Assembly: GCA_947650365.1 (NCBI GenBank)
Contig: OX393551.1
Location: forward strand, 61,497,173 to 61,561,172
Direction of reading: 5' to 3'
DNA: 64,000 nucleotides
Source: Chamaelirium japonicum
Taxonomy: Eukaryota > Streptophyta > Magnoliopsida > Liliales > Melanthiaceae
Below the pieces are notes generated by a model. The model did not search any database. It was given only the letters and a program-made list of their open reading frames with translations, and was not told the DNA's origin. The translations under genes were made by a program, and so were the position numbers. Each line of letters opens with the position of its first letter. Position 1 is the first letter of the stretch. Below, one piece after another: positions 1-60,711 of the stretch.

Positions 1-1289
1 GAATGAATTAGAATTGATCGTGCGAATGAATTAGAATGGATTGCACGAATGAATTAGAATGGATACATTCGAGCGAATGAAGTAGAATTGATCGTACGAA
101 TGAATTAGAATGGATCGTACGAATGAATTAGAATGAATCGTACGAATGAATTAGATGGATACATTCGAACGAATGAATTAGAATAGATCGTAGGAATGAA
201 TTAGAATGGATCATACGAATGAATTAGAATTGATCGTGCGAATGAATTAGAATGGATTGTACGAATGAATTAGAATGGATACTTTCGTACGAATGATGTA
301 GAATGGATCGTACGAATGAATCAGAATGGATCGTACGAATGAATGAATTAGAATTGATCGTGCGAATGAATTAGAATGGATTGTACGAATGAATTAGAAT
401 GGATACATTCATGTGAATGAAGTAGAATGAATCGTACGAATGAATTAGAATGGATTGTACGAATGAATTAGAATGAATCGTACGAATGAATTTGAATGGA
501 TACATTCGAACGAATAAATTAGAATAGGTCGTAAGAATGAATTAGAATGGATCATACGAATGAATTAGAATTGATCGTGCGAATGAATTAGAATGGATTG
601 TACGAATGAATTAGAATGGATACATTCGTGCGAATGAAGTAGAATGGATCGTACGAATGAATTAGAATGGATACATTCGTGCGAATGAAGTAGATTGGAT
701 CATACGAATGAATTAGAATGGATCGTACGAATGAATTAGAATGAATCGTATGAATGAATTAGAATGGAAACATTCGAACGAATGAATTAGAATAGACCGT
801 ACAAATGAATTAGAATGGATCGTACGAATGAATTAGAATGGATCGTACGAATGAATTAGAATGAATCGTACGAATGAATTAGAATGGATACATTCGAACG
901 AATGAATTAGAATAGATCGTAGGAATGAATTAGAATGGATCATACGAATGAATTATAATTGATCGTGCGAATGAATTAGAATGGATACATTCGTGCGAAT
1001 GAATTAGAATAGATCTGGATAGTGCGAATGAATTTGAATGGATTGCACGAATGAATTAGAATGGATACATTCGTGCGAATAAAGTAGAATGGATCGTACG
1101 AATGAATTAGAATGGATCGTACGAATGAATCAGAATAGATCGTACGAATGAATTAGAATGGATCGTACGAATGAATTAGAATGGATACATTCGAACTAAT
1201 GAATTAGAATAGATCATAGGAATGAATTAGAATGGATCATACGAATGAATTAGAATTGATCGTGCGAATGAATTAGAATGGATTGCACG
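1..1289 (+). repeat. Satellite block, forward orientation
   Basis: Tandem 23-bp monomers with core GAATGAATTAGAATGGATCG, called forward here. They are mixed with 28-bp variants containing GGATACATTCG. Variants follow a fixed order (TTGATCGTG, GGATTGTAC, long CATTCGTG, GAAGTAG, GGATCGTAC, GAATCGTAC, long CATTCGAA, ATAGATCGTAGG, GGATCATAC), which is the 9-monomer higher-order repeat seen across the window, here with some units lost or gained. The block continues beyond the left edge of the window. Confidence 0.95.
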
Positions 1290-4200
1290 TACGATCCATT
1301 CTACTTCATTCGCACGAATGTATCCATTCTAATTCCTTCGTACAATCCATTCTAATTCATTCGCACGATCAATTCTAATTCATTCGTATGATCCATTCTA
1401 ATTCATTCCTACGATCTATTCTAATTCATTCGTTCGAATGTATCCATTCTAATTCATTCGTACGATTCATTCTAATTCATTCGTACGATCCATTCTAATT
1501 CATTCGTACGATCCATTCTACTTCATTCGCATGAATGTATCCATTCTAATTCATTCGTGCAATCCATTCTAATTCATTCGCACGATCAATTCTAATTCAT
1601 TCGTATGATCCATTCTAATTCATTCCTATGATCTATTCTAATTCATTCGTTCGAATGTATCCATTCTAATTCATTCGTACGATCCATTCTAATTCATTCG
1701 TACGATCCATTCTAATTCATTCGTATGATCCATTCTAATTCATTCCTACGATCTATTCTAATTCATTCGTTCGAATGTATCCATTCTAATTCATTCGTAC
1801 GATTCATTCTAATTCATTCGTACGATCCATTCTAATTCATTCGTACGATCCATTCTACTTCATTCGAATGAATGTATCCATTCTAATTCATTCGTGCAAT
1901 CCATTCTAATTTATTCGCACGATCAATTCTAATTCATTCGTATGATCCATTCTAATTCATTCCTATGATCTATTCTAATTCATTCGTTCGAATGTATCCA
2001 TTCTAATTCATTCGTACGATTCATTCTAATTCATTCGTACGATCCATTCTAATTCATTCGTACGATCCATTGTACTTCATTCGCACGAATGTATCCATTC
2101 TAATTCATTCGTACAATCCATTCTAATTCATTCACACGATCAATTCTAATTCATTCGTATGATCCATTCTAATTCATTCCTACGATCTATTCTAATACAT
2201 TCGTTCGAATGTATCCATTCTAATTCATTCGTACGATTCATTCTAATTCATTCGTACGATCCATTCTAATTCATTCGTACGATCCATTCTACTTCATTCG
2301 CACGAATGTATCCATTCTAATTCAGTCATATGATCCATTCTAATTCATTCGCCCGATCCATTCTATTTCATTTATACGATCCATTCTAATTCATTCGTAC
2401 GATCCATTCTAATTCATTCGCACAATCTATTCTAAGTCATTCGTACGATCCATTCTAATTCATTAGCATGATCCATTCTAATTCATTCGTACGATCCATT
2501 CTATTTCATTCATACGATCCATTCTTACTCATTCGTACGATCCATTCTAATTCATTCGCATGAATGTATCCATTCTAATTCATTCGTACGATCCATTCTA
2601 ATTCATTAGCACGATCCATTCTAATTCATTCGTACGATCCATTCTATTTCATTCGTACGATCCATTCTTACTCATTCGTACGATCCATTCTAATTCATTC
2701 GCATTAATGTATCCATTCTAATTCATTCGTACGATCCATTCTAATTCATTCGTACGATTCATTCTAATTCATTCGTACAATCCATTCTAATTCATTCGTA
2801 CGATCCATTCTAATTCATTCGTACGATCCATTCTAATTCATTCGTATGATCCATTCTAATTCATTCCTACGTTCTATTCTAATTTATTCGTACGAACCAT
2901 TCTACTTTATTCGCACGAATGTATCCATTCTAATTCATTCGTACAATCCATTCTAATTCATTCGCACGATCAATTCTAATTCATTCGTATGATCCATTCT
3001 AATTCATTCCTACGATCTATTCTAATTCATTCGTTCAAATGTATCCATTCTAATTTATTCGTACGATCCATTCTAATTCATTCGTACGATCCGTTCTACT
3101 TCATTCGCACGAATGTATCCATTCTAATTCATTCGTACAATCCATTCTAATTCATTCGCACGATCAATTCTAATTCATTCGTATGATCCATTCTAATTCA
3201 TTCCTACGATCTATTCTAATTCATTCGTTTGAATGTATCCATTCTAATTTATTCGTACGATTCATTCTAATTCATTCGTACGATCCATTCTGATTCATTC
3301 GTACGATCCGTTCTACTTTATTCGCACGAATGTATCCATTCTAATTCATTCGTACAATCCATTCTAATTCATTCGCACGATCAATTCTAATTCATTCGTA
3401 TGATCCATTCTAATTCATTCCGACGATCCATTCTACTTCATTAGCACGAATGTATCCATTCTAATTCATTCGTACAATCCATTCTAATTCATTCGCACGA
3501 TCAATTCTAATTCATTCGTATGATCCATTCTAATTCCTTCCTACAATCTATTCTAGTTCATTCGTTCGAATGTATCCATTCTAATTTATTCGTACGATTC
3601 ATTCTAATTCATTCGTACGATCCATTCTGATTCATTCGTACGATCCATTCTACTTCATTCGCGCGAATGTATCCATTCTAATTCATTCGTACAATCCATT
3701 CTAATTCATTCGCACGATCAATTCTAATTCATTCGTATGATCCATTCTAATTCATTCTATGATCTATTCTAATTTATTCGTTCGAATGTATCCATTCTAA
3801 TTCATTCGTACGATTCATTCTAATTCATTCGTACGATCCATTCTAATTCATTCGTACGATCCATTCTACTTCATTCGCACGAATGTATCCATTCTAATTC
3901 ATTCGTACAATCCATTCCAATTCATTCGCACGATCAATTCTAATTCATTCGTATGATCCATTCTAATTCATTCCTACGATCTATTCTAATTCATTCGTTC
4001 GAATGTATCCATTCTAATTCATTCGTACGATTCATTCTAATTCATTCGTACGATCCATTCTGATTCATTCGTACGATCCATTCTACTTCATTCGCAGGAA
4101 TGTATCCATTCTAATTCATTCGTACAATCCATTCTAATTCATTCGCTCGATCAATTCTAATTCATTCGTATGATCCATTCTAATTCATTCCTACGATCTA

Positions 4201-6544
4201 TTCTAATTCATTCGTTCGAATGTATCCATTCTAATTCATTCGTACGATTCATTCTAATTCATTCGTACGATCCATTCTAATTTATTCGTACGATCCATTC
4301 TACTTCATTCGCACGAATGTATCCATTCTAATTCATTCGTACAATCCATTCTAATTCATTCGCACGATCAATTCTAATTCATTCGTATGATCCATTCTAA
4401 TTCATTCCTACGATCTATTCTAATTCATTCGTTCGAATGTATCCATTCTAATTCATTCGTACGATTCATTCTAATTCATTCGTACGATCCATTCTAATTC
4501 ATTCGTACGATCCATTCTACTTCATTCGCACGAATGTATCCATTCTAATTCATTCTTACAATCCATTCTAATTCATTCTTACGATCAATTCTAATTCATT
4601 CGTATGATCCATTCTAATTCATTCCTACGATCTATTCTAATTTATTCATTCGAATGTTTCCATTCTTATTCATTCGTACGAATCATTCTAATTCATTCGT
4701 ACGATCCATTCTGATTCATTCGTACGATCCATTCTAATTCATTCGTACGATCTATTCTACTTCATTCGCACGAATGTATCCATTCTAATTCATTCGTACA
4801 ATCCTTTCTAATTCATTCGCACGATCAATTCTAATTCATTCGTATGATCCATTCTAATTTATTCCTACGATCTATTCTAATTAATTCGTTTGAATGTATC
4901 CATTCTAATTCATTCGTACGATCCATTCTAATTCATTCGTACGATCCATTCTACTTCATTCGCACGAATGTATCCATTCTAATTCATTCGTACAATCCAT
5001 TCTAATTCATTCGCACGATCAATTCTAATTCATTCGTATGATCCATTCTAATTCATTCCTACGATCTATTCTAATTCATTCGTTCGAATGTATCCATTCT
5101 AATTCATTCGTACGATTCATTCTAATTCATTCGTACGATCCATTCTAATTCATTCGTACGATCCATTCTACTTCATTCGCACGATCAATTCTAATTCATT
5201 CCTACGATCTATTCTAATTCATTCGTTCGAATGTATCCATTCTAATTTATTCGTAATATTCATTCTAATTCATTCGTACGATCCATTCTAATTCATTTGT
5301 ACGATCCATTCTACTTCATTCGCACGAATGTATCCATTCTAATTCATTCGTACAATCCATTCTAATTCATTCGCACAATCAATTCTAATTCATTCGTATG
5401 ATCCATTCTAATTCATTCGTACGATCCATTCTAATTCATTTGTACGATCCATTCTACTTCATTCGCACGAATGTATCCATTCTAATTCATTCGTACAATC
5501 CATTCTAATTCATTCGCACGATCAATTCTAATTCATTCGTATGATCCATTCTAATTCATTCCTACGATCTATTCTAATTCATTCGTTCGAATGTATCCAT
5601 TCTAATTCATTCGTACGATTCATTCTAATCCATTCGTACGATCCATTCTAATCCATTCGTACGATCCATTCTAATTCATTCTCATAAATGTAACCTTTCT
5701 AATTCATTTGTACGATCCATTCTAATTCATTCGTACGATCCATTCTAATCCATTCGTACGATCCATTCTAATCCATTCGTACGATCCATTCTAATTCATT
5801 CGCACGAATGTAACAATTCTAATTCATTCGTACGATCCATTCTAATTCATTCGCACAAATGTATCCATTCTAATTCATTCGTTCGATCCATTCTAATTCA
5901 TTCGTATAAATATATCCATTCTAATTCATTCGTACGATCCATTCTAATTCATTCGTACGATCCATTCTAATTCATTCGTCCGATCCATTCTAATTCATTC
6001 ACATGAATGTATTCATTCTAATTCATTCGTACAATCTATTCTAATTCATTCGCACGATCCATTCTAATTCATTCGTATGATCCATTCTAATTCATTCCTA
6101 CGATCTATTCTAATTTATTTGCTCGAATGTATCCATTCTAATTCATTCGTACGATCCATTCTTATTCATTCGTACGATCCATTCAAATTCATTCGCATGA
6201 TCCATTCTAATTCATTCGTACGATCCATTCTTATTCATTCGCTCGAATGTATCCATTCTAAATCATTCGTACGATCCATTCAAATTCATTCACATGATCC
6301 ATTCTTATTCATTCGTACGATCTATTCTAATTCATTCGCTCGAATATATCCATTCTAATTCATTAGCACGATCCATTCTAATTTATTCGTACGATCCATT
6401 CTATTTGATTCGTACGATCCATTCTTACTCATTCGTACGATCCATTCTAATTCATTCGCACGAATGTATCCATTCTATTCTAATTCATTCGTGCAATCTA
6501 TTCTAATTCATTCGTTCGAATGTATCCATTCTAATTCATTCGTA
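1290..6544 (-). repeat. Satellite block, reverse orientation
   Basis: The same satellite in reverse complement (CATTCTAATTCATTCG). The 217-bp higher-order unit is clear from about 1300 to 2300 and 2850 to 5630. From about 2320 to 2830 it is replaced by a different arrangement with CTATTTCATTCG, CTTACTCATTCG and TTAGCACG variants (the 143-bp unit). From about 5630 to 6540 the order is irregular, with TAATCCATTCG and AAATGTAACC variants. Short open frames here are by-products of the repeat. Confidence 0.95.
2463..2748 (-). repeat. Second higher-order repeat, 143-bp 6-mer
   Basis: The marker TTAGCAYGATCC recurs at 2463 and 2606, 143 bp apart, which equals five 23-bp monomers plus one 28-bp monomer. 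The order is TTAGCAY, standard, TTTCATTCG, TTACTCATTCG, standard, then a long monomer with CATTCGCATDAATG. The same order recurs at 39758 and 39901, again 143 bp apart. Confidence 0.75.
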
Positions 6545-8764
6545 TGCGAATGAATTAGAATGGATTGCACGAATGAATTAGAATGGATACATTCGTGCGA
6601 ATGAAGTAGAATGGATCGTACGAATGAATCAGAATGGATCGTACGAATGAATTAGAATGAATCGTACGAATGAATTAGAATGGATACATTCAAACGAATG
6701 AATTAGAATAGATCGTAGGAATGAATTAGAATGGATCATACGAATGAACTAGAATTGATCGTGCGAATGAATTAGAATGGATACATTCGAACGAATGAAT
6801 TAGAATAGATCGTAGGAATGAATTAGAATGGATCGTACGAATGAATTAGAATGGATCGTACGAATGAATTAGAATGGATTGTACAAATGAATTAGATTGG
6901 ATACATTCATGCGAATGAAGTAGAATGGATCGTACGAATGAATTAGAATAGATCGTACGAATGAATTAGAATGAATCGTACGAATGAATTAGAATGGATA
7001 CATTCGAACAAATGAATTACAATAGATCGTAGGAATGAATTAGAATGGATCATACGAATGAATTAGAATTGATCGTGCGAATGAATTAGAATGGATTGTA
7101 CGAATGAATTAGAATGGATACATTCGTGTGAATGAAGTAGAATGGATCGTACGAATGAATTAGAATGGATCGTACGAATGAATTAGAATGAATCGTACGA
7201 ATGAATTAGAATAGATACATTCGAACGAATGAATTAGAATAGATCATAGGAATGAATTAGAATGGATAATACGAATGAATTAGAATTGATCGTGCGAATG
7301 AATTAGAATGGATCGTACGAATGAATTAGAATGGATTGTACGAATGAATTAGATTGGATACATTCATGCGAATGAAGTAGAATGGATCGTACGAATGAAT
7401 TAGAATAGATCGTACGAATGAATTAGAATGAATCGTACGAATGAATTAGAATGGATACATTCGAACGAATGAATTAGAATAGATCGTAGGAATGAATTAG
7501 AATGGATCATACGAATGAATTAGAATTGATCGTGCGAATGAATTAGAATGGATTGTACGAATGAATTAGAATGAATACATTCGTGCGAATGAAGTAGAAT
7601 GGATCGTACGAATGAATTAGAATGGATCGTACGAATAAAATAGAATGGATCGTACGAATGGATACATTCGTGCGAATGAAGTAGAATGGATCGTACGAAT
7701 GAATTAGAATGGATCGTACGAATGAATTAGAATGGATCGTACGAATGAATTAGAATGAATCGTACGAATGAATTAGAATGGATCGTACGAATGAATTAGA
7801 ATGGATACATTCATGCAAATGAATTAGAATGGATCGTACGAATGAGTAAGAATGGATCGTACGAATGAAATAGAATGGATCGTACGAATGAATTAGAATG
7901 GATCGTGCTAATGAATTAGAATGGATCGTACGAATGAATTAGAATGGATACATTCATGCGAATGAATTAGAATGGATCGTACGAATGACTTAGAATAGAA
8001 TGGATCGTACGAATGAATTAGAAATGATCGTAGGAATGAATGAATTAGAATAGATCATAGGAATGAATTAGAATAGATCGTAGGAATGAATTAGAATGGA
8101 TCATACGAATAAATTAGAAATGATCGTGCGAATGAATTAGAATGGATTGTACGAATGAATTAGAATGGATACATTCGTGCGAATGAAGTAGAATGGATCG
8201 TACGAATGAATTAGAATGGATCGTACGAATGAATTAGAATGAATCGTACGAATGAATTAGAATGGATACATTCGAACGAATGAATTAGAATAGATCGTAG
8301 GAATGAATTAGAATGGATCATACGAATAAATTAGAAATGATCGTGCGAATGAATTAGAATGGATTGTACGAATGAATTAGAATGGATACATTCGTGCGAA
8401 TGAAGTAGAATGGATCGTATGAATGAATTAGAATGGATCGTACGAATGAATTAGAATGAATCGTACGAATGAATTAGAATGGATACATTCGAACGAATGA
8501 ATTAGAATAGATCTTAGGAATGAATTAGAATGGATCATACGAATGAATTAGAATTGATCGTGCGAATGAATTAGAATGGATTGTATGAATGAATTAGAAT
8601 AGATCGTACGAATGAATTAGAATGGATCGTATAAATGAATTAGAATGGATCGTGCGAATGAATTAGAATGGATCGTATGACTGAATTAGAATGGATACAT
8701 TCGTGCGAATGAATTAGAATGGATCGTACGAATAGAATGGATCGTACGAATGAATTAGAATGAA
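6545..8764 (+). repeat. Satellite block, forward orientation
   Basis: Forward monomers. The 9-monomer unit is recognisable through most of the block. At about 7840-7960 there is a forward copy of the 143-bp type arrangement (GAATGAGTAAG, GAATGAAATAG, GTGCTAATG). The block opens at CATTCGTATGCGAATG and closes at GAATGAATCCATTC, both inverted-repeat junctions. Confidence 0.93.
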
Positions 8765-9722
8765 TCCATTCTACTTCATTAGCACGATCCATTCAAATTC
8801 ATTCGTACGATCCATTCTAATTCATTCATACAATCCATTCTAATTCATTCGCACGATCAATTCTAATTCATTCGTATGATCCATTCTAATTCATTCCTAT
8901 GATCTATTCTTATTCATTCGTTCGAATGTATCCATTCTAATTCATTCGTACGATTCATTCTAATTCATTCGTACGATCCATTCTAATTCATTCGTACGAT
9001 CCATTCTACTTCATTCGCACGAATGTATCCATTCTAATTCATTCGTACAATCCATTCTAATTCATTCGCATGATCATTTCTAATTCATTCGTATGATCCA
9101 TTCTAATTCATTCCTACGATCTATTCTAATTCATTCCTTCGAATGTATCCAATGAATTAGAATGGATCATACGAATGAATTAGAATTGATCGTGCGAATG
9201 AATTAGAATGGATTGTACGAATGAATTAGAATGGATACATTCGTGCGAATGAAGTAGAATGGATCGTACGAATGAATTAGAATGGATACATTCGTGCGAA
9301 TGAAGTAGAATGGATCTTACGAATTAATTAGAATGGATCGTACGAATGAATTAGAATGAATCGTACGAATGAATTAGAATGGAAACATTCGAACGAATGA
9401 ATTAGAATAGATTGTAGGAATGAATTAGAATGGATCATACGAATGAATTAGAATTGATCGTGCGAATGAATTAGAATGGATTGTACGAATGAATTAGAAT
9501 GGATACATTCGTGCGAATGAAGTAGAATGGATCGTACGAATGAATTAGAATGGATCGTACGAATGAATTAGAATGGATATAATTCATTCGTACGATCCAT
9601 TCTACTTCATTCGCACGAATGTATCCATTCTAATTCATTCGTACAATCCATTCTAATTCATTCGCAGGATCAATTCTAATTCATTCGTATGATCCATTCT
9701 AATTCATTCCTACGATCTATTC
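8765..9722. repeat. Satellite, three short blocks of alternating orientation
   Basis: Reverse from about 8765 to 9150, forward from about 9151 to 9579, reverse from about 9580 to 9722. The last piece is cut by the LINE at 9723 and resumes at 16005. Confidence 0.92.
9711..9722. repeat. Target-site duplication of LINE 1, left copy
   Basis: TACGATCTATTC lies directly before the poly(T) that marks the 3' end of the minus-strand LINE. The same 12 bases follow the LINE 5' end at 16005-16016, and the satellite then continues in the expected monomer order. Because the satellite is repetitive, chance identity is a caveat, but the uninterrupted repeat phase supports a true duplication. Confidence 0.8.
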
Positions 9723-9746
9723 TTTTTTTATTTAATGCTAGGGGAT

Positions 9747-9752
9747 TTTATT
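9747..9752 (-). promoter_or_regulatory. Polyadenylation signal AATAAA of LINE 1
   Basis: AATAAA on the minus strand, about 20 nt before the A-rich tail. The position is right for 3' end formation of the LINE transcript. Confidence 0.6.
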
Positions 9753-9867
9753 AGGGACCCCGCCCATGAAAACAAAGCACTATTACACCTCTGGCCTTTT
9801 ATAAAACAAGGCATCAGAGTAAAGAAACCCAAAAACATCTAGGAACAACTAAAAGAATACAATTTAT

Positions 9868-9963
9868 ACCATGGAACATATATCTCACACCCAATCTGTC
9901 TCCCATAGCAACTGCAAACTACCATGGAACATATATTTCACACCCAATCTGTCTCCCATTAGC
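9868..9963 (-). repeat. 53-bp direct repeat in the LINE 1 3' untranslated region
   Basis: ACCATGGAACATATAT starts at 9868 and again at 9921. About 43 bp after each start are nearly identical (one visible C/T difference), giving a tandem duplication inside the 3' untranslated region, downstream of ORF2. Confidence 0.85.
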
Positions 9964-10007
9964 TTGGAATAATAGCTGCAAACTGTGCCTGAATTAATTT
10001 GCCAAGC

Positions 10008-15988: not shown

Positions 15989-16004
15989 CTCTCCTCTCGC
16001 CCAT
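15945..16004 (-). promoter_or_regulatory. GA-rich 5' end of LINE 1
   Basis: On the minus strand the element opens with ATGGG and then a purine tract of GAGAG and GGAG units, overlapping the first codons of ORF1. Only about 16 nt precede the ORF1 ATG. LINE 2 has the same opening and GA tract. GA repeats can act in plant promoters through GAGA-binding BPC proteins; a promoter role here is inference. Confidence 0.45.
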
Positions 16005-46484: not shown

Positions 46485-46599
46485 TGTTGGGGGTAGACAG
46501 AAACCACATATCTTGGGTAGCATTGCAAACGCATCTGAGATAAGAGTTCTCGAGGGAGCCCGTCCAAAAAGCTCGCCCTCCCAGCCCATCAGGAGCCCG

Positions 46600-46790
46600 C
46601 CCCCCCACAGGGAGCTGGATGGACACCTTGTATCTGAGTGCAGCTCGCCTCTCCCAACCCCACAGGAGCTCGCCCCACAGGGAGCTGGATGGACACCTTG
46701 TATCTGAGTGCAGCTCGCCTCTCCCAACCCCACAGGAGCTCGCCCCACAGGGAGCTGGATGGACACCTTGTATCTGAGTGCAGCTCGCAG
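46600..46790 (+). repeat. 70-bp triplication inside the 5' LTR
   Basis: GGAGCTGGATGGACACC begins at 46611, 46681 and 46751, exactly 70 bp apart. The 3' LTR has the same three copies at 58678, 58748 and 58818, so the triplication predates insertion. Confidence 0.93.
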
Positions 46791-46867
46791 GAGTTCGCTC
46801 CCCCGTGCTCACCAAATCACCTTGACAGGGAGCGAGATCCACATTAGGCTGAAAGGGCCCAGGCCAA

Positions 46868-47200
46868 GAGCACTCTTAAGAGCTCGCCTGAGCTCGATGG
46901 AGCTCGCCTGAGATCGCCCAGAAGCTCGCTCAGGAGCTCGCCTGAGCTCGATGGAGCTCGCCCGAGATCGCCCAGAAGCTCGCTCAGGAGCTCGCCCCGC
47001 AGCTCGCCAAGCTCACCCAGGAGCTCGCCTAAGCTCGCTCAGGAGCTCGCCCCGGAGTTCGCCAAGCCCGCGCGAGAACTCGCTGGCAGTGATAGCGGGA
47101 GTTAGACCGTCATGCATAACGAAGACACCGGCATCGCGAACGCCCCTAGCTCGCGCAGGAGCTCGCCCCTAGCTCGCTCAGGAGCTCGCCCAAGCTCGCC
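46868..47200 (+). repeat. AGCTCGCC-rich low-complexity stretch of the LTR
   Basis: Dense degenerate repeats of AGCTCGCC, GAGCTCG and AGATCGCCC, including a unit of about 54 bp present twice near 46890-47000. The same motif is frequent elsewhere in the element. Confidence 0.8.
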
Positions 47201-47614
47201 AGAATTCCCCAGTTTATCGAGGAGGTTGCTCCCGTGAGGTCCGACTCTTGATAGATGTGGAAGAGAAGGCGGAGCAATGGAGGGCGAGCTCACCTTAGCT
47301 CCCCGTCGGAGGTCGCCCACAATGTATGAGAGGATGCCAGGTGTCAAAACCCCACGGAAGCTACGTGGACAAACGTGGTCCACGGAAGCTCACTCGAATC
47401 AGTTCGAGACCTCCCAGACTTGAACATTCCAGAAGGGCCACCTGGCCACGACAAGAAAGATTCCCTCCCCCACTCAAACCGCCTGGCAGGCCTGACGACA
47501 GAATGTCAGGGCGCGAGTACCAAGGACTGTCAGACCCACGCGAGCCAGAACGTGGGGGGTCTAGAAGGCGCCGGAAGAATCTCCACGTGTCGGGCCACGG
47601 TAGGCCGCCGATTG

Positions 47615-47622
47615 CTATAAAT
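47615..47622 (+). promoter_or_regulatory. TATA box of the 5' LTR
   Basis: CTATAAAT sits about 200 bp before the LTR end, in a sensible place for the U3/R boundary. Transcription would start about 30 bp further on. The 3' LTR has the same site near 59682. Confidence 0.7.
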
Positions 47623-47820
47623 GCTCACCCCCAGGCTCCATAGTACAGGTTCGAAATCCCTTTTCCTTCCTCTTTGGTCCATTACAGCTCGCCGTTGTGC
47701 CACTGTGACTGACTTGAGCGTCGGAGGGTCTGCGCTCCTGAGGGAGCCAGCCGTTCTCACGTTCTCTTTTCTTTGTCTTGCAGGCAGCCCGCACGGACCA
47801 GCGAAAAATCCCCCGAACAT

Positions 47821-47838
47821 TTGGCGCCGTCTGTGGGA
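47821..47838 (+). other. Primer-binding site
   Basis: TTGGCGCCGTCTGTGGGA lies just after the 5' LTR. TGGCGCC is complementary to a tRNA 3' end GGCGCCA, as is typical of plant Gypsy elements. I do not assign the tRNA species. Confidence 0.8.
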
Positions 47839-47909
47839 TCTTCGACTGGTTCCTGCGAGAACGCCCACGACCACGCGGTTGAGCGCAGTTCGCTCTCGTA
47901 ACCTCAAGG

Positions 47910-50414: not shown

Positions 50415-50441
50415 CAATTACCGCCCGCTACGAGCGAGCTA

Positions 50442-53400
50442 TTGAGGAGCCCGCTGGAGGCCTCCTCGCTTAAGTCCCCTACTCCACCCCCGGGTGGGAG
50501 CGGTGTGGACCTTAAGTTGGAGGAGGGAGGTCGCCCGACAACCCCCAAGAGAGGAAGTTTTCCAATTGCCGAACCACTTCAAGAGGTCGACATTGGCGGC
50601 AAGGAAGGGCCAAGAGTTGTTAGCCTCGGGACCTCGCTAACCAAGGGCGAGGTCCTGGCCATAACCAACTTGCTCAGGGAATACCGTGACGTATTCGCCT
50701 GGAGCTTCGCGGACATGCCTGGGATTGACCCGGAGGTCGCCTGTCATCGTCTGCACACCATGAAAGAGTTCCCGCCGGTCAAGCAGAAAGCTCGGCACAT
50801 ACCTGCTGCAAAGTCCATTGCAGTGGCGGCAGAGATAGACAAGCTGGAGCGAGCCGGCTTCATCCGCGAGGCACACTTCCCCGAGTGGATCTCCAATATC
50901 GTGGCGGTGCCAAAGAAGAGCGGAGCGGTCAGGGTGTGCATCGACTTCTCCGACCTCAACAAGGCATGCCCGAAGGATGGATTTCCTCTTCCGAGAATAG
51001 GCGCACTGGTCGATGCAGCTGTCGGGTTCCAGGCCCTGTCCTTCATGGATGGATATTCTGGGTATAACCAGATACCTCTCCACACCGGCGATCAGGAGAA
51101 GACCGCCTTCTACTCCGGAGCGGGCTACCAGAAGTTGTACTGCTATCGAGTGATGCCGTTCGGACTTAAGAACGCTGGAGCGACCTACCAAAGGCTAGTC
51201 ACTCAGATGTTCAAAGATCAGATCGGCAGAAACATCGAAGTTTATGTAGACGACCTCCTGGTGAAGAGTCGGGAGAGGGAGGGGCATGTTGCCGATCTCC
51301 GCGAAACCTTTGAGGTACTGAGAAAGTACCAAATGAGGCTAAACCCGGCGAAGTGCGCATTCGGGGTGACGTCGGGGAAATTCCTCGGGTACCTGGTCAC
51401 CCACAGGGGGATCGAGGCCGACCCTGGGCAAATCCGAGCACTTGTCGAGATGCCCGCGCCGAGGACCCGGCAGGAAGTCCAGAGGCTGAGCGGGCGAATC
51501 GCCGCGCTCAATCGGTTCATCTCCAAATCCTCCGACAACTGCCGACCTCTTTTCGAGCTGCTACGAAAAGGAGCAAGCATTTGTTGGGATGAGAAGTGCG
51601 AGCATGCCTTCCAAAAGATCAAGGACTACCTGGCGAGCCCACCGATCTTAGCGGCACCCAAAGAGGGCGCCGAACTCGGCGTGTACCTTGCGGTCACTGA
51701 GAATGCGGTGAGCGGGGTCCTGGTTGTGGAAGAAGCAAAGGTGGAGCGGCCTGTCTACTTTGTAAGCCACACGATGCTTCCCGCCGAGCTCCGGTATCGA
51801 CCAATCGAGAAGGTCGCATTGGCCTTGGTCCTTACCGCGAGAAAGCTCCACCCCTACTTCTCGGCGCACCCTGTCAGGGTCATCACAGAGCACCCTCTAA
51901 AGAGCGCGCTCTCCAGGCCCTCAGTAGCCGGCAGGCTCTACCGTTGGTCCGCCGAGCTCGCCGCCTACGGCTTGGAGTATGTCCCTCGAGTTGCGGTCAA
52001 AGGACAGGCGCTCGCCGATTTCTTGGCGGACTTCCCCATAGAAGAACCGGTCCAGTACCGGGAGGATGAGCCAACTGAGGCACACCCTGGGAAGGCGAGG
52101 TTCTTGGACAATCAAGGCGAGCATCCTCCAACTAAGCATTCAGAGGAGGCAGGCTGGGAATTATTCGTCGATGGATCCTCCAACGCTTTGGGGGCTGGGA
52201 TCGGGGTCGCACTGATCGCCCAGTCGGTACTTCTGGAAAAGTCAGTCCGACTGGATTTCGCCGCTACCAACAATGAGGCGGAATATGAGGCGCTGTTGGC
52301 TGGCCTGGAGCTCGCCAAAGAGGTAGGCGCCGAACGCCTGAAGGTCTTTAGCGATTCCCAGCTAATTGTTTGCCAAGTCAATGGGGAGTACGCCTCTCGG
52401 GACGCACGAATGGCGGGCTACGTGGATCTGGTGAAGCACAAGGCCGCGGAGTTCGAAAAGATTTCCTTCGAGCAAATTCCGCGAGCCGATAATAGGCGAG
52501 CTGATGCTTTGGCAAACGCCGCCTCTTTGCTGGGAACATCAGAGGCTCGCCAGATTCTCATCGAAGTCCAAAATCAGTCTCGGCTCCAACTGATGGAGCC
52601 CGCTGTTAACCAAGTCTCCGCCAACGTACCACTCAGCGGGTGGACCGCCCCCATTTTTCGCTTTCTCCAGATGGGCGAGCTACCAGAGGATAGAGAGGAA
52701 GCTCGGCGAGTGGAGAAATGCGCTGGGCGCTATCTCATTCGCTGGGATTGCCTTTTTCGAAGATCCTTTGGCGGGCCAAGTCTCCGTTGCGTCGAGAGCC
52801 CGGAAACCGAAGAAGTTCTAAAGTGCATTCACTCTGGCGAGCTGGGAAACCACGCTGGTGGGCGGTCTCTTGCTGCGAAAGTACGAAGGCAAGGATACTG
52901 GTGGCCCACTCTGGAGCAAGACGCTTTGAAGGTCGCCCAGAGGTGCATCCAGTGCCAGAAGCACGCCACCACGAACCATATGCCCGCAGAAGAACTGCAT
53001 CCTCTGGCGAGCCCCTGGCCTTTCCAGCAATGGGGGTTGGACATTGTGGGACCTTTCCCTGTGTCAGCCCGGCAAAATTAATTCATCCTAGTAGCTACGG
53101 ACTACTTCACCAAATGGGTGGAAGCGGTCCCGCTAGCTAAGATAGGCGAGAAGCAAGTCAAGGACTTCCTTTGGAAGAATATCTTCTGCCGCTTTGGGCT
53201 GCCACGAGTGCTGATCACCGACAATGGTCGCCAGTTCGACAATCGCTTGATCAGAAGCTTTTGTGTTGAATATGGGGTCGACCTAAGGTTCTCATCCCCG
53301 AGGTACCCTCAAAGCAACGGGCAGGCCGAAGCGACGAATCGCGTGATCTTGGACAACCTCAAGAAGAGGCTGGAAGGGAAAAAAGGATTGTGGGAGCAGG

Positions 53401-53876
53401 AGCTCGATGGAGTCTTGTGGGCCTATCGCACTACTCCACGTCGCTCAACTAACGAATCCCCTTTCAGTCTCACTTTTGGTTGCGAAGCCGTGCTACCCAT
53501 AGAGGCCGAGCTGCCCACTGAAAGAAGGTTTGCGTCGGCGGAGGTCGACAACGACAAACTGCTAGTCGACTCCCTTGATCAACTTGAAGAAAGACGAGAG
53601 CGCGCCAATCTACACCTCACCGGATACCGACAAGAGATGAAGCGCGCCTATGATAAAAGAGTCCGCCATCGGGCATTCAAAGCCGGGGACATGGTGATGA
53701 GGAAGGTGTTCGCAAACACTCAAGAGCCTAATGCAGGAAAGCTCGCGGCGAACTGGGAAGGCCCTTACATAATACGCGAAGCGCGAGGCCAGGGGGCTTA
53801 CCAGTTGATGACCGCTGAAGGCGACCTGTTAGAGCGGCCTTGGAATGCTTTACACCTTCGCAAGTTCTATGCCTAA
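50442..53876 (+). pseudogene. pol: Gypsy pol region: RT - RNase H - second RNase H - integrase
   Basis: Domain order: reverse transcriptase (about 50690-51300) with CIDFSDLNKACPKD, MPFGLKNAGATYQ and the YVDD box near 51243; a first Gypsy RNase H (about 51660-52050); a second, archaeal-type RNase H (about 52155-52540) with FVDGSS, NNEAEYEAL, FSDSQL and NRRADALA; and integrase (about 52815-53876) with an HHCC zinc region, a core with TDNGRQF and NGQAEATNR, and a C-terminal chromodomain-less tail. The duplicated RNase H is diagnostic for the Tat lineage. The region looks nearly intact, with about one break, so I list it as a fossil rather than a working gene. Confidence 0.9.
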
Positions 53877-53991
53877 GGAAATTTTTGTAAAATTTTCTTT
53901 TTGAAGAGGTTATGAATGAATGACGGGATTTTCCACAAAGAATTCCACCCGGAAGCTCGCCGCACCAAGAGCTCGCTTAATCTACAAAACA
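53877..53991 (+). other. Spacer between pol and tandem repeats
   Basis: A short AT-rich stretch after pol, then AGCTCGC-type sequence leading into the 78-bp repeats. No gene seen. Confidence 0.6.
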
Positions 53992-54430
53992 GTCCGCCGT
54001 TGTGCGGACTTAAAGCAAGACCGGAATCCTCAGAGGCAGCCAGTGGGCGACCTTGAGCTTCCCGGGGCAGTCCGCCGTTGTGCGGACTTAAAGCAAGACC
54101 GGAATCCTCAGAGGCAGCCAGTGGGCGACCTTGAGCTTCCCGGGGCAGTCCGCCGTTGTGCGGACTTAAAGCAAGACCGGGATCCTCAGAGGCAGCCAGT
54201 GGGCGACCTTGAGCTTCCCGGGGCAGTCCACCGTTGTGCGGACTTAAAGCAAGACCGGGATCCTCAGAGGCAGCCAGTGGGCGACCTTGAGCTTCCCGGG
54301 GCAGTCCGCCGTTGTGCGGACTTAAAGCAAGACCAGGATCCTCAGAGGCAGCCGGTGGGCGACCTTGAGCTTCCCGGGGAAGTCCGCTGCCTAGTGGACT
54401 CTAAACCTAACCAGGATCCTTCGCGTTCAC
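53992..54430 (+). repeat. 78-bp tandem repeats after pol
   Basis: GTCCGCCGTTGTGCGGACTT (one copy has a T in place of a C) starts at 53992, 54070, 54148, 54226 and 54304: five copies at a 78-bp period, followed by a diverged sixth at 54382. Because 78 is a multiple of three, one frame stays open (26 residues per unit), but I see no sign that it is a gene. Tandem repeats between pol and the 3' LTR are common in Tat-lineage elements. Each unit begins with GTCCGC...GCGGAC, an inverted repeat. Confidence 0.95.
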
Positions 54431-54540
54431 CTGCCATGAACGGAAGCATCCTGGCGTTGGCAAACCCCTCAAAGGGCGAGCCCGCCAAACAGGATCATCG
54501 AGAGAAATTAACCGGGCAGGGGGCAGCTAGCACTTATTAG

Positions 54541-54861
54541 TTTCCTTTAAAAATAAAAATCGTTTTAAGTCTCTGAGTGTAGGGAAGTTTTTGAAGTCTT
54601 TTGGTTCGTTTTAACGTTTTCCGGGCTCAGAGACTATCGAGTTTTTACGAGCATGCCGAGTTTTTCGTTTGCATATACTTAAAAATAAAAGGGTTGAATC
54701 GAATTAGCTGCCTCGCCCGGGGTATCGCTCTCGAGGTCGCTGCGAACTTTCAAAGCGGACTCATAAAAGGCACATAGAAAGAAGGAAACGCATATGCGGG
54801 CCCAGAAAGATAAATTTCATTGATTGGCAAAAATTACAAAAGTAGTTACAAGGCAGCAAGC
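54541..54861. other. Non-coding stretch in the Gypsy 3' region
   Basis: Locally AT-rich, with plus-strand AATAAA at 54552-54557 and 54684-54689. It lies between the sense-strand repeats and the 3' end of the antisense ORFs. It may hold RNA 3' end signals; no gene seen. Confidence 0.5.
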
Positions 54862-55395
54862 TCAGGGCTTGCTTGTCTCCGCCCCACTGTCGTCCCCTCG
54901 GCGCCGCTTCTTCGACCTTTCGGTCTTGTATTTCTCCACAGCGGCCAGGGCGCCTTTCTTGAGGAGATCGTCCAGTTGGGCTTGGAGGCGGCCTTGCTGA
55001 GCCCGAAGGCCGTTGGCGTGTGTCTCCTTCAAGGCCGCAATCTCCGTCTTCAGAGCAGCGACCTCGCCTTGAAGTTGAGCCGCCTCCCGCTGTGCGACCT
55101 CCCGGGCGGACACAGCTTCGTCTCGCTCCGCCTTGGCCTTGAGGAGGGCACTAGCGGACAGGCCTTTGGCTACCTCGGCCATGGCGAGGCCTGACGCCAG
55201 GGTTTTGACCCTGCGGTGCAGTGCCTCTGACTCCACCCTCAGCTCCTCGGAGCCCTTGGCTCGCTGAAGCTCGTGGATGTGCTCGTCTACCTTGCGCTCG
55301 GACCCCCGAAGGGAATCATCGAACAAGGCGGCCAGTGCCTTCCCGGCCCCAGCGACCTCCGTGGCTAGCGCCTGGCTCTGCTTCTCCGCCTGCAT
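54862..55395 (-). CDS. Gypsy antisense ORF B (coiled-coil, basic C-terminus)
   Basis: 177 codons on the strand opposite gag-pol. It is rich in A, E, K, L and Q with heptad-like spacing (for example EVAALKTEIAALKET), suggesting a coiled coil. It ends in a basic stretch, KTERSKKRRR, that could be a nuclear localisation signal. It lies directly downstream of antisense ORF A, and a candidate short GT-AG intron (about 55390-55461) spans the junction, so the two may be exons of one antisense gene. Antisense ORFs at this position are known in Tat-lineage elements; their role is not established. Confidence 0.65.
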   Translation of the reverse strand: MQAEKQSQALATEVAGAGKALAALFDDSLRGSERKVDEHIHELQRAKGSEELRVESEALHRRVKTLASGLAMAEVAKGLSASALLKAKAERDEAVSAREVAQREAAQLQGEVAALKTEIAALKETHANGLRAQQGRLQAQLDDLLKKGALAAVEKYKTERSKKRRRGDDSGAETSKP

Positions 55396-55461
55396 AAGGA
55401 AGGTGAAAGAGTTAGCAAAAATTGAGACTAAGATTTATAAGGAGGCAGGTGCGGTGAGTAC
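55390..55461 (-). other. Candidate intron between the antisense ORFs
   Basis: On the minus strand GAG|GTACTC at 55461 and TTATGCAG|GCG at 55390 form a GT-AG pair about 72 nt apart, with a T-rich stretch before the acceptor. This is near the lower size limit of plant introns. Inference from signals only; no RNA evidence. Confidence 0.55.
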
Positions 55462-57411
55462 CTCGGCAAGGCGTTCGCTTATGGAAGCGAAGGGAGCCCG
55501 CGCGAAAACGTTGCGGCCCAGCAGCTGCCGCACGTAGTGGGGCGCCCTCCCCTCCTCCGCAGAGGAGCCCGCGCTGGGACCCCCGGGAGCTCCGGAAGGA
55601 GGGGGCACGCCAGGAGGAGTGGGGGCTATCACCTCCCCCGGGCGAGCTCTGGCTCCTGGCGGGCTCGGAGGGTCCGCGGTGGCCCCCTTGGCCTCTGGCT
55701 CCGAGCTGAAGGACTCGGAGTCGGAGCCAATGTCAACAAAGCTAGGGGACCTATAGACCAGGTCCCCTAAGCCCTGCTGGGAGCCCGCTCCCTCCTGGCC
55801 TTCTGCAGGAGGCGAGGCCGGAGGGGCGGGAGCTGGAGCGGTCGCCGGTGTAGAGGCCGCGGGAGTTGGAGCCGAGGCCGGCAAGGAGGTCGCAGCGACG
55901 GCGTCGGACTCGCCCTGCTGGACCCCTGCCCCGTCGGCGGGAGATGGAGGCTCCTGCCCGCTCGATCCCGGCCCTGGTGCGGGAGCTGATGGAGTCGTGG
56001 GCTTCATCCCTTGGGCGGGAGCAACAGGCTCCGCCCGAGGAGCTTGAGGGGCGGGCTCTTCTTCCTCGGAGCCTGTTGCCTCCTCCGCAGAGTCCGTCCA
56101 GCTGGGCTCCGAGTCCAAGCCCGCCTCCTCCAGCGCTTTCCGCCGTTGCTCCGCCTGGACGTCAGAAGGCGCGGGCCCCGCGCGTTTGGCCTTCTTCTTC
56201 CCGTGGGCCTCCATCTCCGGCGTCAGCACTGCTACACGAAGCGGGACGGTCAGATCGCCCGGGAAGTAGCCCATTAGAATTTGAGCCATCCCGGACTCGA
56301 CTTCCGCCATGGTAAGCGGGAGGTCGATGTTCGGGTCGTCGGGCTCAACCATTTGGATCTTGCGGCGGACAATGGGAGTTGGGGCGGGAGGCTGACCTGG
56401 GCCGGCGTCCGGGCGAGGAGGTTGCGGAGGAGCGGAAGCTTCGCCCTGGTGAAGCATCTCCATGGTATCGGGGTCGTTGAGGCGGATGGGCGAAGCCCGC
56501 CTCCGGACCGTCTTCTTACGGGGGTTGCCTCCCGAGCTCCTGGCCCCCTTGCTGGCCCCTTTGGAGGGAGGGGCGTTCTGCATCGGCGGAATAGCGCCGA
56601 CCTCCTCCTCTTTCTTCTTCCGGACGGTCTTCTGCTTCAGCAGAATAGCACCGGTCTTCCCGTCCTTCAGCTGAAAGGCGAAGTCGGGGGTGGTGATCTT
56701 CTCCGGAGTCCGCCCACCGAGGTAGTGGAGGATCGCATCGTCCAGAGATCGCTCCCGGTCGGGAGCGATGCACTTCTTCTTCCCCGCCTTGTAGAAGGAG
56801 ATCTCCCGGAAGACCGCCGTCGGGGGAACCCCGGGGTGAGCCGGGACTCCGCTGTGCCGCCCGCGCCAGTCGCCGACCGCCACGAAAGGATAGTCCTTCC
56901 AGTGGCGGTCCTTGCTCTCGATGGTGGAGAAGGGGAGCACCTCGCCAGGCCGCCCGGCGAGGTAGAAGTAGCCGCAGCCCGCGGTGCTGAAGACCGGTGA
57001 GGGTTTGAGGAGCCACTTTTTGAGCAAGTAGCTCAGTGGGATCCTCGCCTTCAGAGCGGTCTCCAGCTGGGACAGCCCGTAGAGTATCCCCCAGGAGTTT
57101 CCTGAGAGTTGGGCGGGGCAAAGCCCCGTCAACTCCAGGAGCTCCCCGGCGAGATGACTCAGGGGGAACCGCAGCCCGGACCACAGCAGCCCGACAGAAG
57201 CTACTGTGCCCTGGGGCGGCCTCCCCGAGAGTGGCATCTCGGTGACGAGGATCTCCCGAGGGAGATCGATCGCCGCCCGGATACTATCCCCGACAGGCAC
57301 CCCGACGGGGTTTTGCAGCCAGACCACCGCTCTTTCGGTGGCGGGCTCAGCGGCCTGGGCGGCAGCAGCAGCGGCAGCAACAGCAGCAGCAACGTCAGCA
57401 GCGGAAGCCAT
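55435..57411 (-). CDS. Gypsy antisense ORF A (Tat-type additional ORF)
   Basis: About 658 codons from the ATG at 57411, on the strand opposite gag-pol (the frame is open further upstream, but only through a non-ATG codon). It starts with an alanine run. Residues of roughly 60-180 look folded (LRFPLSHLAGELLEL, SGNSWGILYGL, WKDYPFVAVGDW) and resemble the plant family annotated as putative gypsy-type transposon (PF04195-like). The rest is proline-, alanine- and acid-rich, low-complexity linker. A TATA-like box lies about 100 bp upstream. The long open frame on the wrong strand for pol argues for selection, though the high GC content also lengthens chance frames. Confidence 0.7.
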   Translation of the reverse strand: MASAADVAAAVAAAAAAAQAAEPATERAVVWLQNPVGVPVGDSIRAAIDLPREILVTEMPLSGRPPQGTVASVGLLWSGLRFPLSHLAGELLELTGLCPAQLSGNSWGILYGLSQLETALKARIPLSYLLKKWLLKPSPVFSTAGCGYFYLAGRPGEVLPFSTIESKDRHWKDYPFVAVGDWRGRHSGVPAHPGVPPTAVFREISFYKAGKKKCIAPDRERSLDDAILHYLGGRTPEKITTPDFAFQLKDGKTGAILLKQKTVRKKKEEEVGAIPPMQNAPPSKGASKGARSSGGNPRKKTVRRRASPIRLNDPDTMEMLHQGEASAPPQPPRPDAGPGQPPAPTPIVRRKIQMVEPDDPNIDLPLTMAEVESGMAQILMGYFPGDLTVPLRVAVLTPEMEAHGKKKAKRAGPAPSDVQAEQRRKALEEAGLDSEPSWTDSAEEATGSEEEEPAPQAPRAEPVAPAQGMKPTTPSAPAPGPGSSGQEPPSPADGAGVQQGESDAVAATSLPASAPTPAASTPATAPAPAPPASPPAEGQEGAGSQQGLGDLVYRSPSFVDIGSDSESFSSEPEAKGATADPPSPPGARARPGEVIAPTPPGVPPPSGAPGGPSAGSSAEEGRAPHYVRQLLGRNVFARAPFASISERLAEVLTAPASL

Positions 57412-57506
57412 GAGAGCAGAAGGGCTAAAGCGAGCTGAAAGCACTAGAAGCAAAGGGAGAAGGGAGAGCTGTTTTCACGCAGCAGTAAAAATTGCCCCCC
57501 GTCCCC

Positions 57507-57515
57507 TATTTAAAG
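57507..57515 (-). promoter_or_regulatory. TATA-like box before antisense ORF A
   Basis: On the minus strand CTTTAAATAGGGG lies about 100 bp upstream of the ATG at 57411, a normal spacing for a plant promoter with a 5' leader of about 65 nt. It suggests that the antisense ORF has its own promoter, separate from the LTR. Confidence 0.55.
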
Positions 57516-57814
57516 GCGAGCGAGAGACAGGTGAATCGATCCGCATTTAATGCCCAAGCGCGCTCGGCGAGGCGACGTGACGGCGATCAAAGCGACAGCT
57601 CGCTTCTCTCAAATCGTCGAGCGCCACGTGGACCACGCGTGGAAAAAGCTGCGCCGGCGCCAGCACTGTCCTTTATTGACAGAGAAAGGGACAAATGAGG
57701 AGGAGACACGCGTCTCGCGCCGATCGGGGTCTCATGATGAGATTCGCTGTATCAGCATTGAGCCTCGCGCCGCAGTTAAGGTGAAGCGACCGTTGGAGAT
57801 TCGGTGCGATACCC

Positions 57815-58400
57815 AAGTCACAAGATCGCCCGCGACAGGCGCCCCAAGCTCGCCCGAAGCAGACCCTGACCGCGTGTGACAAGCTCGTACCGGAAGGAGA
57901 TCGCTCGTGGCTGACGCTCGAGGCCCGTCCAGCGTTTGTGAAATACTGGGAGTCAAAACTCTCGACGCAGATCGCTCGCGGCAGGTGCCCGCAGCTCGCC
58001 CGAGGCAGACCCTGGCCGCGTGTGACAAGCTCGCACCGGAAGGAGATCGCTCGTGGCTGACGCTCGTGGCCCGCCCGGCGTTTTTGAAAAGTACTGGGAG
58101 TCAAAACTCTCGACGCAGATCGCTCGCGGCAGGTGCCCGCAGCTCGCCCGAGGCAGACCCTGGCCGCGTGTGACAAGCTCGCACCGGAAGGAGATCGCTC
58201 GTGGCTGACGCTCGTGGCCCGCCCGGCGTTTTTGAAAAGTACTGAGAGTCAAAACTCTCGATGCAGACCGCCCACGGCAGGCGCCCAAGCTTGCCCGAAG
58301 CTGACCCTGACCGCATGTGAGGAGCTCGCATCGCAGGAGATCGCTCATGGCTGATGCTCGTGGCCCGTCCAGCGTTTGTGAAATACTGGCAGTCAAAGCT
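57815..58400 (+). repeat. 148-bp tandem repeats before the 3' LTR
   Basis: AGTCAAA(A/G)CTCTCG begins at 57951, 58099, 58247 and 58391, giving periods of 148, 148 and 144 bp, about four copies. Each contains GATCGCTCGYGG, AGCTCGCCCGA and GTGTGACAAGCTCG segments. The two central copies are nearly identical and the outer ones more diverged, the usual pattern for unequal exchange. Confidence 0.92.
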
Positions 58401-58537
58401 CTCGGCGCAGGCCGCCATCGCTACTATCTCCGCCCCGCAAGAAAACTGTTACGGCAGACATTGATATCAGGCACATTGCCGGGGATAGGAGTTCGCTAAG
58501 ACTCCTGAGCAAGCGTCGAGTTTCCTCGATCACTCCC

Positions 58538-58551
58538 TCAGGAGGGGGTAA
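58538..58551 (+). other. Polypurine tract
   Basis: TCAGGAGGGGGTAA directly before the 3' LTR, the expected plus-strand primer site for Gypsy elements. Confidence 0.8.
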
Positions 58552-59886
58552 TGTTGGGGGTATACAGAAACCACATATCTTGGGTAGCATTGCAAACGCA
58601 TCTGAGATAAGAGTTCTCGAGGGAGCCCGTCCAAAAAGCTCGCCCTCCCAGCCCATCAGGAGCCCGCCCCCCCACAGGGAGCTGGATGGACACCTTGTAT
58701 CTGAGTGCAGCTCGCCTCTCCCAACCCCACAGGAGCTCGCCCCACAGGGAGCTGGATGGACACCTTGTATCTGAGTGCAGCTCGCCTCTCCCAACCCCAC
58801 AGGAGCTCGCCCCACAGGGAGCTGGATGGACACCTTGTATCTGAGTGCAGCTCGCAGGAGTTCGCTCCCCCGTGCTCACCAAATCACCTTGACAGGGAGC
58901 GAGATCCACATTAGGCTGAAAGGGCCCAGGCCAAGAGCACTCTTAAGAGCTCGCCTGAGCTCGATGGAGCTCGCCTGAGATCGCCCAGAAGCTCGCTCAG
59001 GAGCTCGCCTGAGCTCGATGGAGCTCGCCCGAGATCGCCCAGAAGCTCGCTCAGGAGCTCGCCCCGCAGCTCGCCAAGCTCACCCAGGAGCTCGCCTAAG
59101 CTCGCTCAGGAGCTCGCCCCGGAGTTCACCAAGCCCGCGCGAGAACTCGCTGGCAGTGATAGCGGGAGTTAGACCGTCATGCATAACGAAGACACCGGCA
59201 TCGCGAACGCCCCTAGCTCGCGCAGGAGCTCGCCCCTAGCTCGCTCAGGAGCTCGCCCAAGCTCGCCAGAATTCCCCAGTTTATCGAGGAGGTTGCTCCC
59301 GTGAGGTCCGACTCTTGATAGATGTGGAAGAGAAGGCGGAGCAATGGAGGGCGAGCTCACCTTAGCTCCCCGTCGGAGGTCGCCCACAATGTATGAGAGG
59401 ATGCCAGGTGTCAAAACCCCACGGAAGCTACGTGGACAAACGTGGTCCACGGAAGCTCACTCGAATCAGTTCGAGACCTCCCAGACTTGAACATTCCAGA
59501 AGGGCCACCTGGCCACGACAAGAAAGATTCCCTCCCCCACTCAAACCGCCTGGCAGGCCTGACGACAGAATGTCAGGGCGCGAGTACCAAGGACTGTCAG
59601 ACCCACGCGAGCCAGAACGTGGGGGTTCTAGAAGGCGCCGGAAGAATCTCCACGTGTCGGGCCACGGTAGGCCGCCGATTGCTATAAATGCTCACCCCCA
59701 GGCTCCATAGTACAGGTTCGAAATCCCTTTTCCTTCCTCTTTGGTCCATTACAGCTCGCCGTTGTGCCACTGTGACTGACTTGAGCGTCGGAGGGTCTGC
59801 GCTCCTGAGGGAGCCAGCCGTTCTCACGTTCTCTTTTCTTTGTCTTGCAGGCAGCCCGCACGGACCAGCGAAAAATCCCCCGAACA
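58552..59886 (+). repeat. 3' LTR of the Gypsy element
   Basis: 1335 bp, TGTTGGGGG to CCCCCGAACA, the same length as the 5' LTR with about three single differences by eye. It carries the same 70-bp triplication, AGCTCGCC-rich stretch and TATA box. Confidence 0.96.
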
Positions 59887-59891
59887 GATCG
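59887..59891. repeat. Gypsy target-site duplication GATCG, right
   Basis: Matches 46480-46484. The satellite resumes as GATCGTACGAATGAATTAG, the normal monomer sequence. Confidence 0.85.
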
Positions 59892-60366
59892 TACGAATGA
59901 ATTAGAATGGATCGTACGAATGAATTAGAATGGATACATTCGAACGAATGAATTAGAATAGATCGTAGGAATGAATTAGAATGGATCATACGAATGAATT
60001 AGAATTGATCGTGCGAATGAATTAGAATGGATTGTACGAATGAATTAGAATGGATACATTCATGCGAATGAAGTAGAATGGATCGTACGAATGAATTAAA
60101 ATGGATCGTACGAATGAATTAGAATGAATCGTACGAATGAATTAGAATGGATACATTCGAATGAATGAATTAGAATAGATCATAGGAATGAATTAGAATG
60201 GATCATACGAATGAATTAGAATTGATCGTGCGAATGAATTAGAATGGATTGTACGAATGAATTAGAATTGATCGTGCGAATGAATTAGAATGGATACATT
60301 CGTGCGAATGATGTAGAATGAAGTAGAATGAATTAGAATGGATTGTACGAATGAATAAGAATGGAT
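59887..60366 (+). repeat. Satellite block, forward orientation
   Basis: Continues the forward block broken by the Gypsy element. It ends at the perfect palindrome GAATGGATCCATTC, the same kind of flip as at 45263. Confidence 0.94.
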
Positions 60367-60711
60367 CCATTCTAATTCATTCGTACGATTCATTCTAATT
60401 CATTCGTACGATCCATTCTAATTCATTCGTACGATCCATTCTAATTCATTCGCACGAATGTATCCATTCTAATTCATTCGTACAATCCATTCTAATTCAT
60501 TCGCACGATCAATTCTAATTCATTCGTATGAACCATTCTAATTCATTCCTACGATCTATTCTAATTCATTCGTTCGAATGTATCCATTCTAATTCATTCG
60601 TACGATCCATTCTAATTCATTCGTACGATCCATTCTACTTCATTCGTACGAATGGATACATTCGTGCGAATGAAGTAGAATGGATCGTACGAGATCGTAC
60701 GAATCGGTACA
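60367..60711. repeat. Satellite, reverse then short forward block
   Basis: Reverse from about 60367 to 60651, then forward to about 60708. The flip at ATTCGTACGAATGG and about 60 bp on each side match 40352-40470. The last 20 bases before LINE 2 (GAGATCGTACGAATCGGTAC) are slightly scrambled satellite. Confidence 0.92.

Follow-up and report, generated by a model that had tools for sequence, protein, structure and literature searches.

The satellite that most resembles the one described here is Chio1/Chio2 of the holocentric plant Chionographis japonica, now Chamaelirium japonicum in NCBI, which is CENH3-bound according to chromatin immunoprecipitation (ChIP) (Kuo et al. 2023, PMC10264360). The published text reports monomers of 23 and 28 bp, 5 bp and one substitution apart, with a TTCGTACGA core, higher-order repeats, several array places per chromosome and arrays of mixed forward and reverse orientation, "frequently alternating" (PMC10264360; also PMC12722358). 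The Chama satellite of the sister species Chamaelirium luteum shares the 9-bp TTCGTACGA but is described as having a 60-bp monomer, a consistent orientation and a repeat structure that persists for several hundred kb (PMC12722358). Centromere-region satellites that switch orientation are also described in Tribolium madens, where the TmSat1/TmSat2 macro-dyads have three main junction types and consist mostly of two near-symmetric subarrays, with inversion sites that are reused, in thousands of copies of high similarity (PMC13081366). Here we consider the orientation changes (flips) in a 64,000-nucleotide stretch of C. japonicum (the window, C3:61,497,173-61,561,172 of an assembly of 1.52 Gb in 3253 contigs), which probably go back to occasional short-homology or non-homologous joins that were then multiplied by segmental copying.

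The window satellite agrees with Chio1/Chio2 in every feature compared with the published text. The window together with 100 kb on each side (the 264-kb context, free of N) holds about 222 kb of array with 9131 monomers, 4449 of them forward. Among 8922 monomer lengths, 23 bp (n=6932) and 28 bp (n=1851) dominate, and the two forms, CCATTCTAATTCATTCGTACGAT and CCATTCTAATTCATTCGCACGAATGTAT, differ by a 5-bp indel and one substitution. The commonest monomer contains TTCGTACGA, the 9-mer printed in PMC12722358. A text search of papers for the monomer letters returned no match. The higher-order repeat comprises 9 monomers, or 217 bp, and 8195 of the 8954 steps from monomer to monomer keep its register. 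An exact satellite 35-mer, placed by its first 100 places (C1 and part of C2), lies on C1, among the matches listed, at about 1-3, 18, 27-31, 40, 49-51, 65-67, 76, 115-119 and 134-136 Mb, which agrees with the published average array spacing of about 10 Mb (PMC10264360). From these matching published features we infer that the window belongs to a Chio1/Chio2 array, and each chromosome of the host plant seems to have many centromere sites.

Strand calls from matches to a 17-bp monomer core, with flips placed at junction midpoints, divide the window into 31 blocks separated by 30 flips, about one per 1.4 kb. All of the roughly 30 flips claimed in the preliminary description were recovered, each within 10 bp of the position given there (for instance 1288 against 1290, 9142 against 9151, 17957 against 17967 and 60656 against 60652). 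Its remark that most satellites run head-to-tail is a fair generality, but alternating orientation is already known from publication for Chio1/Chio2; because that mixed orientation is in print, the observation made in the window is not new, although a junction-by-junction analysis was not found in the sections and passages of the published text examined. The 264-kb context has 166 flips, 83 of each kind, and blocks of strongly unequal length with a median of 35 monomers. Many junction types, unequal blocks and the lack of general mirror symmetry set this array apart from that of T. madens; the symmetric opposed subarrays of the latter have no counterpart beside the context junctions, where no mirror excess was found, and what the two have in common is near-identical, reused flip sites (PMC13081366).

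Flips are not confined to this region. Six of six distant 10-kb samples, at places picked from search matches rather than at random, carry them: 4, 2, 6 and 7 in L029-L032 (C139, C3:31.05 Mb, C124 and C167), while the two samples on C1, L033 and L034, have 10 apiece. They were also present in six of eight 3.4-kb loci, the two without being L005 and L006. Over the whole genome, exact matches to a two-monomer pattern number 438,788 in forward and 432,691 in reverse orientation. Since distant samples have flips and the strands are nearly equal in number over the genome, flip abundance seems to belong to the satellite in general and not to the window in particular. A uniform array on C1, which long sets of listed matches on the plus strand only had seemed to indicate, was rejected in view of the ten flips in each of the two C1 samples.

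The evidence that carries our reading comes from copies of the junctions themselves. Windows of 300 bp were searched for in the 264 kb and nine further loci (about 0.3 Mb), a copy having to span both sides of the junction (by 80 bp each way). At an identity of at least 97%, 93 of 166 real junctions have a copy, as against 2 of 166 artificial ones, and 68 of 148 still do after one copy of a large repeat is dropped. Clustering (60 bp, 93%, single linkage) reduces the 166 real junctions to 66 clusters but the 166 artificial ones only to 158. Junctions have been copied with their flanks by segmental duplication, and the copies stand in both orientations. The large repeat itself, at about C3:61592099-61618034 and again some 43.1 kb to the right (L022-L024 against L026-L028), extends over at least 25.9 kb, to the end of the fetched sequence, with 99.7-99.9% identity and 17 paired junctions; it reflects either recent segmental copying of a large stretch or a duplication made in assembly. 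Judged by sequence, about half or more of the nearby flips that were checked look like inherited copies of older joins and not like separate flips. The preliminary description had taken the density of flips to mean a frequent inversion or fold-back process; a process that changes orientation does exist, but because many flips are copies its rate can hardly be read from their density, and the signals of balanced inversion and of general fold-back, given below, are at chance level.

Copying extends well beyond the context. In searches of the whole genome, one context junction outside the window has 47 exact copies (26+/21-), the junction at 1288 has 40 (22/18) and that at 9142 has 191 (103/88), the last two with up to one mismatch, while control patterns for the three gave 0 matches. 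Copies of the 47- and 40-copy junctions lie only on C3, at about 30.3-31.2 and 61.3-61.6 Mb, or on C124, C128, C139, C166, C167, C176 and C240; the 100 places listed for the 9142 junction involve these contigs too, apart from C240. The whole genome holds 8846 matches to a 58-bp pattern specific to the 217-bp repeat; on the forward strand the first ones listed are at C3:30.05 Mb, which leaves none on that strand of C1 or C2. The 217-bp repeat, the junction families and an element insertion described below thus look private to C3 30.05-31.48 and 61.3-62.1 Mb plus the seven small contigs, and no copy was found on other large scaffolds in the four complete sets of places (three junction types and the element boundary). 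Four of the seven contigs measure 0.74-0.93 Mb, and our guess is that all seven are unplaced parts of C3. Because much of the private family sits on such small contigs, it is possible that mis-scaffolding of one array produced the two C3 sites.

One family of junctions carries a marker. A dispersed element of about 150 bp, whose 3' part is found at 722 places genome-wide (up to two mismatches), lies intact within unflipped, forward array at 34.4 and 58.7 kb of the context and also in L036 and L037. At 86.95 and 99.8 kb of the context it is cut after GATTGAATCAAA, and reverse array follows directly; we call this the marked flip, and the second example lies 0.16-0.19 kb to the left of the window (C3:61496986-61497017). 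The boundary between array and element is found at 94 places (62+/32-, up to two mismatches, whole genome), confined to C3 30.07-31.48 and 61.38-62.10 Mb plus the seven small contigs. The marked flip has 27 copies (18+/9-), 26 of which adjoin that boundary, and 68 boundaries are without it. In the simplest order of events the element was inserted first, the flip came next, and amplification in both orientations followed. Also noticed, in forward array at about C3:61587173-61587342 (L021), was an orphan 3' part of the element without its 5' part; because both its flanks are forward, it is not a simple product of reciprocal inversion.

As to how new flips arise, both arms of each junction were extended by 12-mers seen in uniform array and their overlap compared with that of 6000 random joins. 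At least 6 bp are shared at the join in 18 of 66 junction clusters (6.3% of random joins), and at least 8 bp in 15 of 66 (3.1%). New flips would thus be made occasionally by non-homologous joins, through template switching or end joining; to judge from the junction sequences, some of these joins fall where the monomer is self-complementary over a few bases, as in CGTACG and CATTCG..CGAATG. Flips are then multiplied with their flanks in segmental duplications, which range in size from some hundred bases up to at least 26 kb. Recombination between opposed blocks, together with inverted copying, may reverse whole segments that bear junctions, so that neighbouring junctions would lose their pairing and orientations would settle near 50:50. 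The flips would need no function, as the partly palindromic 23-bp monomer may serve CENH3 chromatin either way round.

Frequent inversion was one of the two processes named in the preliminary description, and we take it to be its main reading. Balanced inversions of array blocks would each create two new junctions, and the alternation of blocks and the 50:50 strand ratio are indeed what such inversions would produce if repeated. The repeat phase is another matter: turning a block back recovers the 217-bp phase at both of its ends in only 1 of 155 block triples, where about 2 are expected by chance, while the same test detects 75 of 181 artificial inversions. Nor, for the marked flips of the 264-kb context, was the other half of the cut element found where the reversed block ends (exact 17-mer), and we consider balanced inversion improbable as the general cause. 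Reinsertion of extrachromosomal satellite circles or fragments in either orientation, a route proposed for the spread of Chio in the text of Kuo et al. (PMC10264360), would fit junctions common to two distant sites. It would leave the phase continuous across a removed block, which was found in 23 of 155 cases, slightly above the 17.9 expected, whereas a control recovered 106 of 181, and we rate it no higher than balanced inversion. Fold-back, or hairpin-primed inverted duplication, has somewhat more in its favour: dyad symmetries are reported in the monomers (PMC10264360), and copies of the marked flip 1956-2221 bp apart form, by their coordinates, seven opposite-strand pairs against one same-strand pair, with opposite inner arms and hence a dyad module with at least one further flip between. 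A 34-bp perfect palindrome formed at a symmetric +- junction, searched as part of a 35-mer, also occurs about 2450 times genome-wide, the listed 100 places lying in many parts of C1. As the main source of flips, fold-back is nonetheless unlikely. The two sides of a junction are in the same repeat phase in 12 of 166 cases (about 18 expected), and the arms at a junction do not resemble each other more closely than opposite arms taken at random (median 0.923, rising to 0.940 with uniform arms, against 0.967). Matches of an arm to the 3 kb on the other side reach at least 0.98 in 39 of 279 cases, as against 13.9% in control regions. The seven pairs may themselves be copies of one event, and two other junction families have no excess of opposite pairs within 3 kb (2 opposite against 1 same for the 47-copy junction, 0 against 1 for the 40-copy one). 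Old, edited inversions or fold-backs would escape all of these phase and arm tests.

That selection maintains the opposed blocks, their dyad symmetry aiding centromere chromatin as suggested for the Tribolium macro-dyads, would accord with the reuse of inversion sites as in T. madens (PMC13081366) and with the CENH3 binding of this array family in the published ChIP (PMC10264360). The blocks are, however, unequal and their arms not mirror-like, and the sister species C. luteum is reported to have consistently oriented centromere arrays (PMC12722358); we give this explanation little credence. Assembly joins are likewise an unlikely cause, with a very slight chance at most of accounting for the flips. 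The DNA is very repetitive, and the near-identical repeat of 26 kb could have been duplicated in assembly. The published assembly, however, if it is the one used here, rests on HiFi reads with means of 14-26 kb at 58.5x, assembled with hifiasm (PMC10264360), and such lengths exceed most blocks; moreover, the same junctions are found again at many places, in some cases differing by single bases, and the 264 kb contain no N.

Several observations also weigh against occasional joins followed by segmental copying. Only 7 of the 30 window flips have a copy of at least 97% in the roughly 0.3 Mb searched, and 10 have one of at least 95%. At 90% or more, real and artificial junctions hardly differ (148 and 134 of 166), for which reason that level was rejected as evidence of descent and only the strict one is informative. 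Single linkage merges independent events at the same palindrome, and one cluster of 19 members holds several repeat phases. Of the 166 junctions, 35 lie in the large repeat, which could have been duplicated in assembly, and the boundary of the marker element could owe some of its copies to repeated insertion at a single preferred site. The seven inverted pairs that make up the module of the marked flip suggest at least one inverted duplication of fold-back type. Finally, filler bases are present at 16 of 66 clusters (null 3.1%), and the overall distribution of overlaps shows no difference from that of random joins (Mann-Whitney p 0.26), so that short homology explains only part of the flips. 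Joining followed by segmental copying nevertheless seems to us the probable explanation of the flips in this Chio1/Chio2 array.

The single array that had been described across positions 1-60711 is satellite in part, but it is discontinuous, being interrupted by transposons: satellite occupies about 1-9723, 16005-46484 and 59887-60700 (some 41 kb), and the remainder is one LINE and one LTR (long terminal repeat) retrotransposon. On the strand map, a reverse block at 1-1288, whose left edge is the marked flip just outside the window, is followed by forward 1289-6544, reverse 6545-8764, forward 8765-9142, reverse 9143-9579, forward 9580-17957 (split by the LINE), reverse 17958-19190, forward 19191-21468, reverse 21469-21657 and forward 21658-21944. 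Then come the reverse block of about 7.2 kb at 21945-29160, forward 29161-29956, reverse 29957-30722, three forward monomers at 30723-30791, reverse 30792-31051, forward 31052-35737, a short reverse block at 35738-35834 in which the order near 35810 is ambiguous, and forward 35835-37431. Reverse 37432-38412, whose left junction closely resembles that at 45452, leads on to forward 38413-38727, four reverse monomers at 38728-38824, forward 38825-40417, reverse 40418-41287, forward 41288-41960, reverse 41961-44030, forward 44031-44600, reverse 44601-45256 and forward 45257-45452. The last blocks are reverse 45453-60365 (split by the LTR retrotransposon), forward 60366-60656 and a reverse remnant at 60657-60700, before a second LINE. 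Lone reverse matches at 2455, 31302 and 36636, which overlap forward monomers, were excluded from the count of flips, as was the forward member of the overlapping pair at 35810/35815.

Both long blocks, 9580-17957 and 45453-60365, have one orientation throughout, each being split by a transposon with a target-site duplication. The LINE, at 9724-16004 on the minus strand within forward satellite, is flanked by the 13-bp duplication TACGATCTATTCT; its long open frames are of 538 and 1390 amino acids (stop to stop), ORF1 with DUF4283 and ORF2 with endonuclease, reverse transcriptase (RT), zf-RVT and RNase H-like domains. The retrotransposon, at 46485-59886 on the plus strand, is of Ty3/gypsy type and young, with 1335-bp LTRs that differ by three mismatches and a 5-bp duplication, GATCG; an antisense open frame of 679 amino acids within it (55435-57474) has no Pfam match. 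The 5' part of the second LINE, on the plus strand and thus opposite to the first, runs from about 60705 to 64000, and satellite resumes some 3.7 kb past the window. All these transposons are of plant types.

With the junctions, events become countable: copies make up many of the flips, and the marked flip gives the order of insertion, flip and amplification. It is conceivable, and we put it forward tentatively, that the flips are heritable tags that record exchange between centromere units, the private family being common to two sites on C3 about 30 Mb apart. Such tags could show whether the centromere units of a holocentric chromosome exchange DNA along its length, a question discussed and left open in the text of PMC10264360. 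If they do, the units of the holocentromere would copy DNA from one another within the chromosome, a route of spreading that Kuo et al. left open.

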